Positions 3-6,213 of a stretch of DNA of 64,000 bases are shown here, one piece after another (the first letter of the stretch is position 1; each line of letters starts with the position of its first letter). This stretch comes from Catenuloplanes niger (GTDB taxonomy: Bacteria > Actinomycetota > Actinomycetes > Mycobacteriales > Micromonosporaceae). Where the stretch lies: contig NZ_JAVDYC010000001.1 in assembly GCF_031458255.1 (NCBI RefSeq), forward strand, positions 8,666,501-8,730,500. The letters run 5' to 3'. Made by a program: the position numbers and the translations under genes. The notes beneath the pieces are model-generated. The model was not told the DNA's origin. It made no database searches and saw only the letters and a program-made list of their open reading frames with translations.

Positions 3-593
3 GTGACGACGCCGGACCCGCCGACCGAACAGCCGCCGACCGCGCGGCCCGCCAGGTCGCGGCCGCCGGTTACGTCCGGGCCGCCGAGCACGCCGCCGGT
101 GCCGGACGGTCCGACCGGCGATCCGAGCCCGGCCACGCCCGGCCCGACCGGGACCACGCCGGGCCCGACCGGTTCGCCGACCGGCCGGCCGACGCCGACC
201 ACGGATCCCCGCGAGACCTGCGACGGCGACGACGCCCAGCTCGGCGTGGCCAGCCCGACCGGCGAGACACCACAGGTCCTGGTGGAGGTGTGCGTGGCCG
301 CCGCGCCCCCGGTCGAGTACTGGATCATGACGTTGAACTCCGCCGGTGACTGGTTCGCGAAGCGGCCGGTCGACACCGAGGTGCACGCGGCCACGTACGG
401 CGTCGTGCTGCGGCACGGCTCCGGGCTGCCCGGCAACCGGCGCGCGTTCGTCCTGGTCGCCGCGACGACCGCCGACGCGCGGACCTGGCTCGCGGCGAAC
501 CGGGACGCCGACGTGGACGGCGACCCGTTCCCCCGCCGCGGCCTGCCCGGTGGCGTCATCGAGATCTCCGCGCGCGTGGCCACCACGTCCTGA
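3..593 (+). CDS. Exported-domain protein, probably 5'-truncated by the window edge
   Basis: The visible part opens with about 70 residues rich in Pro, Thr and Gly, like a wall or linker segment that normally follows a membrane helix, and ends in a compact domain of about 120 residues. That domain resembles the mature part of the lipoprotein encoded 25 bp downstream and the C-terminal domain of the opposing CHAT-ATPase gene: a C-containing strand, a central W/Y-rich segment, then a strand and helix of the type vlvaatTADARTWLA. A GTG at position 3 opens the frame, but the gene may well begin outside the window. No catalytic motif is visible. Function unknown; extracytoplasmic location is inferred from the linker and from the lipoprotein paralogue. 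Confidence 0.6.
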   Translation: MTTPDPPTEQPPTARPARSRPPVTSGPPSTPPVPDGPTGDPSPATPGPTGTTPGPTGSPTGRPTPTTDPRETCDGDDAQLGVASPTGETPQVLVEVCVAAAPPVEYWIMTLNSAGDWFAKRPVDTEVHAATYGVVLRHGSGLPGNRRAFVLVAATTADARTWLAANRDADVDGDPFPRRGLPGGVIEISARVATTS

Positions 594-617
594 CCCGACA
601 CCCGACATGGAGCAGTC

Positions 618-1130
618 ATGATCCGACCGACCCGGGCCGCCGCGGCCACGCTGCTGACCGCCCTCGCCCTCACCGGATGCGCCGACGACCGGACCACCGC
701 CGACCCGGTGGCGTCGCCGGTGCCCGAGATCGGCGCCCAGCTGATCCACCCGGTGGACGACGGCGAGGTGCACCAGTGCGAGGTGTTCCGCGGCACCGCG
801 CGCCTGCCCGAGGACAAGACCCTGGTGCTGGGCGTACGCAACGTGGACAACGGCAGCCCGGAACGCTACTTCGAGGTCGTCGACGACTGGGAGTACCCCG
901 GCGACCTGGCCGAGTGGTCCGGCAGCCAGTGGTTCGGGTCCGGCGACAGCTCGGTCGGCCAGCGGTTCCGGGCCGAGGTGCTGATCATGGACCTGGCCGA
1001 GGTGCGGACGGCGGTCCGGGCGGCGGCCGAGAAGGGCTGGCACGCGCCGGACAACCCGGCGGGCGCCACGGTCGCCGCGCACATCACGCTGAAGCGGGTG
1101 CCCGGCCGCGGCCCGTCCGAGTGCGCCTGA
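618..1130 (+). CDS. Small lipoprotein with the domain shared by its two neighbours
   Basis: The 170-residue product starts with a signal peptide ending in a lipobox (LTGC, Cys21), so it should be lipid-anchored outside the membrane. An ATG preceded by GGAG at 6-nt spacing supports the start. The mature part carries the same domain as the upstream gene and the C-terminus of the opposite-strand CHAT-ATPase: a Cys followed by an RGTARLP segment, a central DDW, and a C-terminal RFRAEVLIMDLAEVR strand-helix. It also ends in a Cys close to the stop, as does the CHAT protein, so a disulfide between the two conserved cysteines is plausible. Probably in one transcript with the preceding gene. Biochemical role unknown. 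Confidence 0.75.
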   Translation: MIRPTRAAAATLLTALALTGCADDRTTADPVASPVPEIGAQLIHPVDDGEVHQCEVFRGTARLPEDKTLVLGVRNVDNGSPERYFEVVDDWEYPGDLAEWSGSQWFGSGDSSVGQRFRAEVLIMDLAEVRTAVRAAAEKGWHAPDNPAGATVAAHITLKRVPGRGPSECA

Positions 1131-1158
1131 CCGCCGGCCGAGTGCGCCCGGCCGGCGG
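1131..1158. terminator. Stem-loop between convergent genes
   Basis: A perfect 10-bp inverted repeat (CCGCCGGCCG, loop of 8 nt, CGGCCGGCGG) fills the 33-bp gap between two convergent stop codons. There is no U-tract, as is common for actinobacterial terminators. It could serve both strands. Confidence 0.5.
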
Positions 1159-1163
1159 CCGGT

Positions 1164-3410
1164 TCAGCAGCCGGACGAGGACCCGGTCTGCTCCACCCGG
1201 ATCGCCGCGCCACGGCGCAGCCCTTCGATCTCGGTCGCGCTGGTCATGTTCCGGCTGGCCGGCCAGGCCGCCCGGATCCGCTCCCGGTCACCGACCAGCG
1301 CGATCACGTCGAACTCCTGCCAGATCGCGTTACCGGTCGACACCCGCGCCGTCCACGTCGCCGGCGGAACCGGCTCGTCCCAGCCGACGACCCGGTGGAG
1401 GAAGAACGGCTCGCCGGTGAAGCGGTCCGCCCGCCGGATCGCCACGACGATCGTCTCGTTCGGCGCGAGCCCGTCCGCGGTGCCGCTGACCTGCATGCAG
1501 GCCTCCACGCCCGCGCCCGGCGACGGCGCGGTGATCCGCACCCCGGGCGCCTGCACGGCACCGTCCGCCCACTGCGGGTCCACGGTCACGGCCGGCCGCG
1601 CCGGCTCACCGCTGGCGCCCCCGGCCGAGCCGGTGGGAGTGCTCCAGGCCGAGCCGGTGGGAGTGATCCCGGCCGGCCCGGTGGTGGGGAGCCCGGCCGG
1701 GCCGGCGGAACCGCGCGGGTCCACCAGGTTCGCGAGCAGACCGGTGCCCGCGAGCAGCAGGACGAGCGCGCCGCCGGCCAGCGCGGCCCGGACGCGCCGG
1801 TGCGGCCGGGCCGCCGTGCCGGACGGGGCGCCCGCGGCGGCCACCGGCGGGCTCACCCGGTAGCGGGCCACCGTGGGCGTGGGCAGCCACGGCTCGTCCG
1901 AACGGGAGCCGATCAGCACCAGCGTGCGACCGCCGCGCAGCCGGGTCAGCACCGCGCGGTACGTCTCCTCGCCGTCGTCGTCGAGGTCGCGCAGCGAGTA
2001 CCCACCACAGTCGAGGATCAGCAGGTGCCGGTCGTCGCGCAGTCGCCGGACCACGCCGCCGAGCAGCGCCGGCCAGGCCATCTCCGCGGTCGCCGCACCC
2101 TCGGCCGTGGCCAGGCCGCTGGCGATCCACTCGACCATCGTCCGTGGCGTCACGTCCGGCTCGTCCAGTGAGAAGCGGAAAACCCGCGACACCGGCCCGG
2201 TGCGCTGCCACCACCAGGCGAGCAGCCGCAGCAGCCAGGTCTTCCCGGCCCCCGCCGGGCCGTGCAGGACGAGCTCGTTCGGTGCGCCGCGGAAGAACAG
2301 CCGCCGCTCGACCGCGAGCACGTCGGCGTCCCGGCCGCGCACCTCGGCCGGTTCCGGACCGCCCCGGGTCAGCGACTCGTGGAACGCGGCCCGTTCGGAC
2401 TCGCTCAGCTCGGCCAGCGTGATCGTGACGTCGCGCTGCTGGTAGAGCACCGGCAACCGCCAGTCCCGCGCCGGGTCGAGGCGCTGCCGCGTGCGGCGTA
2501 CCGCCTCACCTGGGGTGTCTCCGGCCGCCAGGCCGCGGTAGAGGTCCGTGATCATGCGCCCGGCCGTGTCCGGTGCGGACGGTGCGGTCATGCCGACGAC
2601 CACGGGCACCCCGGCCGCGGCGAGGCGCTGCGCCAGGTCGCCGCCGCTGCCCGGCAACGTCAGCACCGCCACGGCCAGCCGGTTGTCCCGCAGCAGGCGT
2701 GCGACGTCCGCGACCGGCACCGGATCGGCGACGTCGTCGGCCCGCGTCTCGAACAGCAGAAAACCCTGTTCGCCCCGGTACGGCGGGATCGGCAGCGACG
2801 GACTGAACCGCCCGGCGTCGATCTCCGCCTGCAGGCCGGCCCAGTCCAGGACCACGCCCGCGAGATCCGCGTGGACCGCCTCGTACCGGCCGTCCGCCAG
2901 GTGCTCGTGCAACGCCCGCCAGGTGCCGGGGCGGGACAGGCCGACGCGCAGCGGCGGGGACGCGTCCCAGGCCGCGGTCACCAGCGTGCGGGAGACCGTC
3001 GGCGGTCCACTCCCGAACGGACGGGCCGCGACGACCAGCACGGCCAGGCTCGGCCCGGGCGGCAGCGGCGCGTACTCCGCCTCCTGGTGGGTGCGGCGTT
3101 CGAACCGCATGCGTACGGACAGCGGGTGGTCGTCGCGCGGGTCGCGCATCATCTCCCAGTGCAGCCGGTGGAACGCCGCGGTGCCGGAGACCACGAGCCG
3201 GCCGTCGCCCAGCCGTGCGTACCGCCGCAGCGCCCGGCCCGTGAAGACCTGACCGAACAGGCTGGTGCCGTACGCGGCCGGCGCCCGGTCCGCCGGGTCC
3301 CGCACGGTGACGGCGTGCCGGTAGGGGTCGCCGGTGAACTCCACGGTGGCGTGGAACGTGTCACCGGACCGGGACTGCTCCGTGATCGTGACGACCGGCG
3401 GTTCGGTCAT
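1164..3410 (-). CDS. Degenerate CHAT domain - P-loop ATPase - transmembrane - exported domain protein
   Basis: The 748-residue protein has four parts. Residues about 100-360 follow the CHAT caspase-like fold, including the fill-in segment before the AAGVPVVVGM strand. A P-loop ATPase follows (GPAGAGKT near residue 385, Walker B HLLILD, then LVLIGSRSD). A single membrane helix lies near residues 540-560 after a basic patch, then a Pro/Thr linker and a C-terminal exported domain like those of the two upstream genes. The CHAT catalytic residues look lost: the usual GHG reads DLAG and the usual NAC-S reads TLPGS. The start is the ATG preceded by GGGAG; the frame stays open 108 bp further upstream without a ribosome site. 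It probably signals across the membrane; no protease activity is expected. Convergent with the two paralogue-bearing genes. Confidence 0.75.
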   Translation of the reverse strand: MTEPPVVTITEQSRSGDTFHATVEFTGDPYRHAVTVRDPADRAPAAYGTSLFGQVFTGRALRRYARLGDGRLVVSGTAAFHRLHWEMMRDPRDDHPLSVRMRFERRTHQEAEYAPLPPGPSLAVLVVAARPFGSGPPTVSRTLVTAAWDASPPLRVGLSRPGTWRALHEHLADGRYEAVHADLAGVVLDWAGLQAEIDAGRFSPSLPIPPYRGEQGFLLFETRADDVADPVPVADVARLLRDNRLAVAVLTLPGSGGDLAQRLAAAGVPVVVGMTAPSAPDTAGRMITDLYRGLAAGDTPGEAVRRTRQRLDPARDWRLPVLYQQRDVTITLAELSESERAAFHESLTRGGPEPAEVRGRDADVLAVERRLFFRGAPNELVLHGPAGAGKTWLLRLLAWWWQRTGPVSRVFRFSLDEPDVTPRTMVEWIASGLATAEGAATAEMAWPALLGGVVRRLRDDRHLLILDCGGYSLRDLDDDGEETYRAVLTRLRGGRTLVLIGSRSDEPWLPTPTVARYRVSPPVAAAGAPSGTAARPHRRVRAALAGGALVLLLAGTGLLANLVDPRGSAGPAGLPTTGPAGITPTGSAWSTPTGSAGGASGEPARPAVTVDPQWADGAVQAPGVRITAPSPGAGVEACMQVSGTADGLAPNETIVVAIRRADRFTGEPFFLHRVVGWDEPVPPATWTARVSTGNAIWQEFDVIALVGDRERIRAAWPASRNMTSATEIEGLRRGAAIRVEQTGSSSGC

Positions 3411-3630
3411 GGCGGCTCCCGGGAATCGCGGAACCCCATCCTGCCCACGGCCCGGCGCCCGGGGCATCGCCCGACGGACCCACCCCCGATCGGCTGATCC
3501 GGCCCCCGATTCCGTCATCCGGCAGGAGCTGCCGATACATCATGTCCGATCAGGGACTCGACGCACTCCCGCGGGCCGGTCCCGGCACAAGCTGGGGGTG
3601 GATTCGTCCACGAGTGCTAGGGGGGCACAG

Positions 3631-6213
3631 ATGCAACTCGTCCTGGAGAATTTCGGGTACACCGCCGGTGGGTGGCGGGTGGAACGGCATCCGCGGTTCG
3701 TCACGGACCTCACCGGGGACGGCGTCGCGGACATCATCGGGTTCGGCGACGCCGGCGCCTGGGTGTCGGCCAACAAGGGCGGCGGCACGTTCAACGACCA
3801 GTTCCTCGGCGTCACGAACTTCGGCTTCACCGCCGGTGGCTGGCGCGTCGACCGGCACCCGCGGGTCCTCGCGGACATCACCGGCGACGGCCGCCCGGAC
3901 ATCGTCGGCTTCGGTGACGGCGGCGTGTGGGTGTCGTTCAACGACGGCAACGGCCGCTTCACCGAGCCGCGCCTGGCGGTCCGCAACTTCGGTTACTCCG
4001 CCGGTGGCTGGCGTGTGGAGCAGCATCCTCGGTTCGTCGCGGACCTGACCGGCGACGGCCGCGGCGACCTCGTCGGCTTCGGCAACGGCGGCGTCTGGGT
4101 GTCGCTCAACAACGGCGACGGTACGTTCGGCGCGCCCCGGCTGGCCGTGCCGAACTTCGGCTACGACGCCGGTGGGTGGCGCGTGGAGCGGCACCCGCGG
4201 TTCGTGACGGACGTGACCGGTGACGGCCGCGCCGACATCGTCGGGTTCGGCGACGGCGGCGTCTGGGTCGCCCGCAACAACGGCGACGGCACCTTCGCCG
4301 ACCCGGTGCTGGCCGTGCCGAACTTCGGTCACACCGCGGGCGGCTGGCGCGTCGAGCGGCACCCGCGGCTCCTGGCCGACACGACCGGCGACGGCCGGCC
4401 GGACGTCGTCGGGTTCGGCGACGGCGGCGTGTGGGTGTCCCGCAACGACGGCAACGGCGGCTTCGGCACGCCCACCATGGTGCTGGCGAACTTCGCGTAC
4501 GGCGCCGGCGGCTGGCGGGTGGAGCGGCACCCGCGGTTCGTGACGGACCTGACCGGTGACGGCCGCGCCGACATCGTCGGGTTCGGCGACGGCGGCGTGT
4601 GGGTGTCGCTCAACAACGGCGACGGCACGTTCGGGCCGGCGCGCATGGTGATCGCGAACTTCGCCTACGACGCCGGCGGCTGGCGGGTGGAGCGGCACCC
4701 GCGTGTGCTCGCCGACGTCACCGGCGACGGCCGGCCGGACATCGTCGGCTTCGGCGACGGCGGCGTCTGGACCGCCCACAACAACGGCGACGGCACGTTC
4801 CAGCGGGTACGGATCCGCCGCGACATCTGGGAACTGCAGGCCGACGGTCCGTGGGACCCGATCACGCTGGCCTACGCGCGGGCGGTCCGCGCGATGCAGG
4901 CCCGCCCGCTGACCGACCCGCGCAGCTGGGAGTACCAGGGCGCGATCCACGGCCGGACCGGGCAGCCACCGGCCGGCGCGATCTGGAACGAGTGCCAGCA
5001 CGGCAGCTGGTACTTCCTGCCCTGGCACCGCGGCTACCTCTACTACTTCGAGGAGATCGTCCGGGCCGAGGTGATCGCGCAGGGCGGCCCGGCCGACTGG
5101 GCGCTGCCGTACTGGAACTACGCGATCCCGGGCCGGGCCGCGCTGCCGCCCGCGTTCCGGGAGCGGACCATGCCGGACGGTTCGCCGAACCCGCTGTTCG
5201 TCGCGGACCGCAACCCGTCCATGAACAACGGTGCGACGCTGCCGTCCACGTCGACCACCGCGGCGCGGGCGATGGCGCACACCACGTTCACGCCGCCGCC
5301 GGCACCCGGCTTCGGTGGTGGCCGCACCACGCCGCAGCACTTCTTCAACCTGGGTGGCGAGCTCGAGTTCACCCCGCACAACGGCATCCACGTGCTGATC
5401 GGCGGCTGGATGGGCGATCCCGACCTGGCCGCGCTCGACCCGATCTTCTGGCTGCACCACGCGAACGTCGACCGGCTGTGGTCGTCGTGGCTGGCGCTCG
5501 GCGGCGGCCGGGCCGACCCGGCCGACACCGCCTGGCGCAACCAGTCGTGGCCGTTCTACGACGCGGACGGTGACCGGGTGACCATCACGAACGCGCAGAT
5601 GGTCGACACCGCGCTGCACCTGGGGTACGTCTATCAGGACGGCGTCGCACCCGGCGCCCGCGCGATGCAGGAGCCGATCATGAGTGCCCCGTCCGACGGT
5701 GAGCCCGAGTTCGTCGGCGCGTCCGACCGGCCGATCACGCTGGCCGGCACGCCGGTCCGCGTCGAGGTCCCGATCGACGGGCCGACCGCCGCCGGCCGCC
5801 GCACCGCCGCCGCGGCCCCGGCCCAGGTGCTGCTGAACCTGGAGGACGTGGCGGCGGAGCGGTCACCCGCCACCGTCTACGAGGTGTACGTGCGCCCGAT
5901 CGGCTCGCCGGACGCGGTCCCGTACCACGTGGGTAACGTGTCGTTCTTCGGCATCGAGCACGTCACGCGCGCCACCTCGGCCGGCGACGGCCCGCACGGC
6001 TTCCGCCGCACGTTCGACATCTCCGCTTGGGTCGCGGACCTGCGCGACCGTGGCGAATGGTCCGACCAGGGCGCCGCGGTCTCGTTCCGCCCGGTCGTGG
6101 TCGAGATCCCGCCGGACGTCCGCGCGTCCGCCGACGCCGCGCTCGCCGACGCGGCCGTGGAGGCGCAGTCCGTCCCGGTCACCATCGGCCGCGTCAGCAT
6201 CTTCTACCGATGA
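3631..6213 (+). CDS. Tyrosinase/polyphenol oxidase with N-terminal FG-GAP repeat array
   Basis: The 860-residue protein begins with seven 56-residue FG-GAP/VCBS-type repeats (residues 8-399; core TGDGRADIVGFGDGGVW) with Asp/Gly calcium-loop patterns. Next is a tyrosinase domain. The CuA ligands are in GAIHG (H440), CQHGS (H457) and LPWHRGY (H466); the CuB ligands are in HNGIH (near 583 and 587) and FWLHHANVDRLW (near 609). A C-terminal beta-rich segment resembles the KFDV-type lid domain of plant polyphenol oxidases. The family oxidises phenols to quinones with O2. The start ATG follows AGGGGGG. No signal peptide or Tat motif is visible, which is odd for an FG-GAP protein. The stop overlaps the start of the DUF2182 gene (ATGA), so the two are probably co-translated. 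Confidence 0.85.
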   Translation: MQLVLENFGYTAGGWRVERHPRFVTDLTGDGVADIIGFGDAGAWVSANKGGGTFNDQFLGVTNFGFTAGGWRVDRHPRVLADITGDGRPDIVGFGDGGVWVSFNDGNGRFTEPRLAVRNFGYSAGGWRVEQHPRFVADLTGDGRGDLVGFGNGGVWVSLNNGDGTFGAPRLAVPNFGYDAGGWRVERHPRFVTDVTGDGRADIVGFGDGGVWVARNNGDGTFADPVLAVPNFGHTAGGWRVERHPRLLADTTGDGRPDVVGFGDGGVWVSRNDGNGGFGTPTMVLANFAYGAGGWRVERHPRFVTDLTGDGRADIVGFGDGGVWVSLNNGDGTFGPARMVIANFAYDAGGWRVERHPRVLADVTGDGRPDIVGFGDGGVWTAHNNGDGTFQRVRIRRDIWELQADGPWDPITLAYARAVRAMQARPLTDPRSWEYQGAIHGRTGQPPAGAIWNECQHGSWYFLPWHRGYLYYFEEIVRAEVIAQGGPADWALPYWNYAIPGRAALPPAFRERTMPDGSPNPLFVADRNPSMNNGATLPSTSTTAARAMAHTTFTPPPAPGFGGGRTTPQHFFNLGGELEFTPHNGIHVLIGGWMGDPDLAALDPIFWLHHANVDRLWSSWLALGGGRADPADTAWRNQSWPFYDADGDRVTITNAQMVDTALHLGYVYQDGVAPGARAMQEPIMSAPSDGEPEFVGASDRPITLAGTPVRVEVPIDGPTAAGRRTAAAAPAQVLLNLEDVAAERSPATVYEVYVRPIGSPDAVPYHVGNVSFFGIEHVTRATSAGDGPHGFRRTFDISAWVADLRDRGEWSDQGAAVSFRPVVVEIPPDVRASADAALADAAVEAQSVPVTIGRVSIFYR
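3652..4827 (+). repeat. Seven tandem 168-bp coding repeats
   Basis: Seven in-frame units of exactly 56 codons, with no spacer or length variation. Each carries AGGWRVE(R/Q)HPR, TGDG and GFGDGGVW. Units 3, 4 and 6 are nearly identical at protein level. This regularity points to recent internal duplication or gene conversion. Confidence 0.9.

Follow-up and report, generated by a model that had tools for sequence, protein, structure and literature searches.

Three adjacent genes at the left edge of a 64,000-nucleotide stretch of the Catenuloplanes niger genome (contig NZ_JAVDYC010000001.1, positions 8,666,501 to 8,730,500; hereafter the window) code for an exported propeller-like protein, a lipoprotein and a CHAT-NTPase with a transmembrane helix. 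They raise the question of whether all three end in the same domain outside the membrane and what kind of system they form. A sequence-only reading of the window had proposed one exported domain common to the three genes, serving a membrane signalling system not yet described. We find that the lipoprotein and the CHAT-NTPase do share a domain, here called A, and that the edge gene ends in a second domain, B, which is by its sequence a separate conserved family. We give about an even chance to the reading that the genes belong to a surface-signalling cluster similar to the PFNA cluster of bifidobacteria, in which the recognition module outside and the output inside have been replaced.

Domains A and B in the three genes

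Comparison of the lipoprotein with the C-terminus of the CHAT-NTPase by BLASTP gives an E of 2e-5, with 27% identity over 96 columns. A profile of 17 A sequences, excluding the window and the related loci L043 and L082 described below, matches the lipoprotein with E 2.4e-33 and the CHAT-NTPase C-terminus with E 5e-15; as controls, the best of 3,000 shuffled tails reached 0.07 and the best of 227 other open reading frames of the window 5.9. These profile values, set against the shuffled tails, rule out a chance resemblance, and for this pair of genes the earlier proposal of a shared domain is upheld. All 23 A domains compared contain exactly two cysteines, the first at the same early column and the last 0-6 residues before the end. 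The C-terminal cysteine pointed out in the earlier reading is therefore a genuine feature of the whole family, and the conserved pair probably forms a disulfide. In an AF2 model of the lipoprotein (681-1127, pLDDT 70), domain A appears Ig/fn3-like. Among solved structures, sequence searches gave no convincing relative of A, of B or of the propeller region.

For the edge gene the outcome is different. Its C-terminal part has no BLASTP match and is not found by the A profile, and profile-profile comparison of A with B gave P 0.018, then 0.044 with more rows, so that the claim of one domain in all three genes was not upheld by sequence for this member. B has two conserved cysteines of its own in 5 of 6 members. 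Its model is poor (pLDDT 44), with a predicted order of elements (strands, helix, strand) like that of A; a fold search with B was dropped, the model being too poor. Homology between A and B is possible.

The order and topology proposed for the three genes, with a signal or membrane helix ahead of each C-terminal domain, are confirmed by the reading frames, the lipobox and the hydropathy. The window begins inside the edge gene, of which it holds the 3' part (1-593, + strand; open frame and hydropathy), and the upstream part was taken from the genome, a single contig of 9.74 Mb. From the ATG chosen, 1,159 bases upstream of the window, the protein has 583 residues and runs from an N-terminal helix through a propeller-like region of ~300 residues and a Pro-rich linker to domain B (204-590, + strand), which is kept in L043, L082, L049, L052 and L070. 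The lipoprotein gene (618-1130, + strand) codes for 170 residues, with an LTGC lipobox whose cysteine is residue 21 and with domain A, located by BLASTP and profile, at 711-1127 (+ strand). The protein has no Pfam or PADLOC match, and its NCBIfam matches lie under the cut-off. The gene for the CHAT-NTPase (748 residues; 1164-3410, - strand) converges on it, stop facing stop, 33 bases apart. On the same strand it encodes a CHAT domain (2469-3230; Pfam CHAT E 2.2e-9), an AAA/NACHT-like NTPase with Walker A and B motifs (2010-2273; Pfam AAA_22 E 4.9e-7, NACHT E 4e-4 and under the cut-off), a single transmembrane helix (1731-1787; hydropathy 2.07) and domain A (1167-1562; BLASTP and profile), which by the predicted topology would lie outside the membrane. 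Ahead of the edge gene, on the opposite strand, are the genes of MoxR, of a DUF58 protein and of a membrane transglutaminase of TgpA type; the genes of the locus are both divergent and convergent. The next gene, at 3334-6213 on the + strand, codes for a fusion of FG-GAP-like repeats (Pfam FG-GAP_3, six stretches, E 1.1e-39) with a tyrosinase domain (E 1.3e-35) and DUF7868 (E 2.1e-17).

The neighbourhood and domain A in other genomes

The three-gene neighbourhood is found outside this genome. Its full layout is present in G168 (L043) and G623 (L082), both of one other genus, where MoxR, a propeller protein with B, a lipoprotein with A and a convergent CHAT-NTPase with a transmembrane helix and A are seen together. 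These two loci have an extra small gene for a one-helix protein before the CHAT gene, conserved between them (E 3.5e-17) and without a Pfam match, though its placing is like that of EACC1. Three more genomes (L048, L049 and L052) have a version with TIR, made up of a propeller protein with A and two TIR membrane proteins, one with A and one with B; no lipoprotein with A was found in these loci. The propeller-A protein is paired with TIR-A in all three, and four of the five TIR proteins pass the Pfam TIR_2 cut-off, TIR-A of L052 missing it (E 0.054). The TIR-B gene of L048 (L048:6780-7298; G143) is broken by a frame change, and its B pieces were matched separately. Counting this broken gene, all six loci, that is the window and these five, have two A domains and one B. 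MoxR and DUF58 motifs occur in 6/6 and the transglutaminase motif in 5/6, with L049 recognised by eye; Pfam finds the transglutaminase in all three loci tested (L009, L043 and L082). Since the neighbourhood recurs in this way, the earlier proposal of a membrane system in which several copies of an ectodomain act together is supported.

The profile searches score the best 10-20 first-look candidates in each genome, so that numbers of genomes without a match are to be taken loosely. With the CHAT copy as query, 10 of 200 family genomes matched, and with the lipoprotein 12 of 200 (window genome included, three matches being false). Profile A5 had matches in 17 of 354 family genomes, weakest in G155 and G722, and profile A2 in 3 of 394 genomes of the class, the window genome again counted in both. 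Before A and B domains were tallied, hits were dropped where the gene had neither (L051, L053 and L054) or no convincing gene model (L068, L069 and L088). L071, a fragment of 84 residues from Paractinoplanes ovalisporus, was also dropped; it was the one match of alignment A4 in the contig collection, in which query P0003 found no related loci. The CHAT gene was found in none of the four genomes of the same genus searched. In a genome of that genus, G001, a protein with three hydrophobic stretches bears a B-like domain (L070:7757-8551), and the surrounding DNA examined gives no propeller or MoxR signal. This B-like domain had no match in 246 genomes of the class, an empty answer that carries no weight, and tblastn of P0002 and the L070 protein against 72,556 plasmid records gave no match.

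Domain A also occurs in other settings. Seven membrane kinases have it outside (L044-L047, L067, L084 and L086; Pkinase over the cut-off in 7/7), as do a caspase (L085; Pfam E 8e-17), two plain membrane proteins (L050 and L087) and a lone lipoprotein (L083). What changes is the cytoplasmic part, which is CHAT-NTPase or TIR in the cluster and kinase or caspase outside it. By hydropathy, all 15 effector proteins tested have a membrane helix between the part inside and the part outside, two of them with a weaker second hydrophobic window (L045 is not in this table). The finding of one outside domain on several proteins of cell-death type suggests a modular bacterial surface receptor. Outside the cluster, the stretches examined around A show no propeller, MoxR, DUF58 or transglutaminase signals except at L050, which has MoxR, DUF58 and transglutaminase followed, at L050:5148-7654, by a kinase with an fn3-like end directly before the A protein, and a propeller relative just beyond the stretch examined. 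Next to the kinases of L045 and L067 stands a gene with an FHA match under the cut-off; next to those of L047, L084 and L086 the matches are weak and of helix-turn-helix type only. Matches of a relative kinase to PD-T4-6 (best E 3e-19) and of the TIR proteins to TIR-bearing defence models (best E 3e-7) were read as matches of domain type, not as identifications of those systems.

A tree of the A domains groups them mostly by gene type, with support of 0.99 for the locus lipoproteins, 0.99 for CHAT and 0.97 for TIR. The propeller copies form a weaker group that includes L050 and L087 (0.53-0.66); L083 joins the kinases, and the caspase copy is placed among them. Copies inside one locus are 22-38% identical and those of the same gene type across loci, in the pairs computed, 34-62%. 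Because the copies cluster by gene type and not by locus, recent tandem duplication is ruled out, and the copies are old and have been kept together.

The propeller family and a possible rule of matched outside domains

Of 150 family genomes, 118 have a relative of the propeller-like region of the edge protein. The region itself has no match in Pfam or the PDB, and we call it propeller-like from its family relatives, one of which, in L108, matches the propeller family PQQ_2 (E 9.5e-8). A second copy in the window genome (L101) has a propeller with three fn3 domains (E 5.7e-36); it adjoins a TPR protein with a transmembrane helix and an fn3-like end, and lies upstream of MoxR, DUF58 and transglutaminase.

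Sixteen propeller loci were compared, including nine further ones picked by hand from the list of matches. The three TIR loci have A on both the propeller and the membrane protein. Five others (L101, L102 and L104-L106) have strong fn3 matches on the propeller side (E 3e-28 to 6e-36) and an fn3-like end on the neighbouring TPR membrane protein; L102 has no MoxR, DUF58 or transglutaminase in the stretch examined. No matched pair was seen in L108, whose propeller protein is without an end domain, or in L110.

A third outside domain is found on propeller and membrane proteins of L107 (3763-5535 and 6911-8530) and L109 (8112-9785 and 6406-8352), and the membrane proteins of both have an HExxH-type motif with a weak M48 match. 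The pair within L107 is supported (E 9.6e-6; 33.5 bits, where 500 shuffles reached no more than 23.9). The pair within L109 is not (E 0.18); the membrane protein of L107 and the propeller protein of L109 match at E 2.8e-4. L107 has MoxR and DUF58 motifs, and L109 has MoxR. A small gene stands beside each pair, that of L109 with an EACC1 match under the cut-off (E 0.0013) and that of L107 being its homologue. G168 has, besides L043, another MoxR/DUF58 cluster (L110), in which two consecutive propeller-type genes bear PKD-type domains.

From these pairings, in which fn3 goes with TPR or kinase, A/B occurs with CHAT or TIR, and the third domain accompanies a membrane HExxH protease-like protein, we tentatively draw a wider rule, to which we give rather less than an even chance. 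In MoxR/DUF58/transglutaminase clusters the propeller protein and its membrane partner would carry a matched outside domain, and the outside domain and the inside output would have been replaced together several times, giving a family of surface receptors that work in the manner of Toll-like or death receptors, their ectodomains matched on the outside and TIR, caspase or CHAT on the inside. The evidence suggests this rule but does not prove it, and loci of the window type would obey it only if A and B are related to each other or act as partners.

Mechanism, rival readings and known systems

Of the three roles that the earlier reading had offered for the free copies of A, namely ligand, decoy or partner, we infer that partner fits best, since the copies, which group by gene type, are of old standing and have stayed together. 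Propeller-B, lipoprotein-A and membrane-A would then form one surface complex, which MoxR, DUF58 and the transglutaminase may assemble or mature and which would control a membrane NTPase. A change in this complex, caused by wall damage, phage, a competitor or contact with kin, would be the trigger; it would bring the membrane proteins together and so switch on the domain inside. Activation inside would involve nucleotide binding and, in the relatives, proteolysis or cleavage of NAD+. The TIR, caspase and CHAT types of the relatives point to death or stress as the probable output.

The CHAT domain of the window has lost residues that its relatives keep. In alignment with L043, L082 and L015, a soluble CHAT-NTPase-TPR relative, it has DLAG in place of DMHG or DVHG, and the segment with the cysteine is deleted. 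Both the histidine and the cysteine are thus gone, and these we take to be the catalytic residues of the family. The protein is therefore predicted not to be a working protease, and the loss is local to it, since all three relatives keep the pair. In this genome the signal might pass by NTPase-driven assembly, or the CHAT-NTPase might act as a regulator. It is very unlikely, in our view, that the gene is a degenerate or purely regulatory relic. Such an idea would account for the lost residues, for the ~30 residues missing near the N-terminus and for the absence, from the open reading frames of the window and L009, of a counterpart to the small one-helix gene that L043 and L082 have. It is countered by a frame open over 748 codons with a third-position GC of 0.93, by Walker motifs and conserved domain A positions that are kept, and by the consideration that a fold kept after loss of catalysis is usual for regulators.

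Two other explanations concern the cluster as a whole, and we regard both as unlikely. The lipoprotein and the propeller protein might bind an external molecule and pass it on to the membrane protein at its A domain; the copies of A would then be alike through binding related ligands and not one another. The lipoprotein and CHAT copies are just 22-28% identical within a locus, however, which would be odd for a common ligand site, and in the TIR loci no A lipoprotein was found. Alternatively, the genes might form an operon for envelope maintenance or adhesion with no part in conflict; MoxR, DUF58 and the transglutaminase would act in the maturation of surface proteins, and the membrane proteins would signal the state of the wall. 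Adhesion and the reception of signals have been discussed as roles of PFNA (PMC8430577), and in mycobacteria MoxR1 is reported to bind RipA, a wall hydrolase, and to aid its transport (PMC12067865). These reports agree with an envelope role, as does the wide, more housekeeping-like spread of the propeller relatives (118/150). Such a role sits poorly with the CHAT, TIR and caspase outputs of the A/B versions and with the scattered occurrence of A (17/354 family genomes, two weak matches included), which is as expected for conflict or kin systems.

The reading of a PFNA-like surface receptor with exchanged parts, and the rule of matched domains with it, also has points that weigh against it. A conflict function is argued from the types of domain, and PADLOC gave no known defence system fitting the window proteins. 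The loci of window type are few (n = 3), and in these three CHAT loci the propeller protein has B and the membrane protein A, so that, homology of A and B being unsupported by sequence, the two share no domain at that level. The three TIR genomes have an estimated contamination of 5-10%, which makes their taxon uncertain. The fn3 matches on the membrane side are all under the Pfam cut-off, that of L105 being to a related family only, and L103, a full canonical cluster, has no matched partner.

To our knowledge, most of the bacterial death-type effectors described sense events inside the cell. Here, effector types of this kind sit on the inner side of a membrane helix with one conserved domain outside and are tied to a surface gene set. 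If the reading of a PFNA-like cluster is true, it gives a testable hypothesis for the MoxR/DUF58/transglutaminase clusters of actinomycetes, namely that they build a surface receptor complex of which the ectodomains are the recognition part.

The PFNA, EACC1 and EAD systems are already in print. The proposal that the system had not been described therefore stands in part: the literature searched yielded no A/B families and no link from them to CHAT, TIR and caspase outputs, whereas the core of the cluster is like PFNA, the nearest cluster in print (pkb2, fn3, aaa-atp, duf58 and tgm; PMC8430577), with which a mycobacterial moxR operon has also been compared (PMC12067865). As in PFNA, MoxR, DUF58 and transglutaminase genes adjoin genes for an exported protein and for a signalling protein in the membrane, and the edge protein is, in its propeller region, a relative of propeller-FN3 proteins. 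Unlike PFNA, the membrane protein of the window is a CHAT-NTPase and not a Ser/Thr kinase with a transmembrane sensor, domains A and B stand in place of FN3, of which Pfam detects none in the edge protein, a lipoprotein is added, and the genes are divergent and convergent where those of PFNA run in one direction. The MoxR-vWA-beta-propeller ternary systems (PMC7159879) likewise combine MoxR with a propeller-like protein; here, the propeller-like region is in a separate exported protein and is not fused to a vWA protein. The Pfam family bpMoxR scores 26.2 bits in the window and 36.2 in L048, with a cut-off of 27.

The two-gene membrane system with EACC1 (PMC7159879) resembles the window in having an N-terminus of the caspase superfamily (CHAT) with a swappable C-terminal part, possibly a transmembrane helix and ectodomain, and the small one-helix gene before CHAT in L043 and L082 is a further likeness; the lost catalytic residues of the window CHAT are a difference. 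No convincing EACC1 was found among 520 open reading frames of the window and L009 (best E 0.34 with the L043/L082 profile, an indirect search, as the profile itself is not EACC1 by Pfam). The EAD principle (PMC7159879) differs in that A and B would lie outside the membrane by their predicted topology, and in that adjacent A copies are not each other's nearest relatives in the tree. It is alike in repeating one small domain over a core component and effectors of one locus, which is seen here for propeller-A with TIR-A in the three TIR loci and not, by sequence, for propeller-B with CHAT-A. If the matched-domain rule is true, these clusters would be the outside counterpart of that principle.

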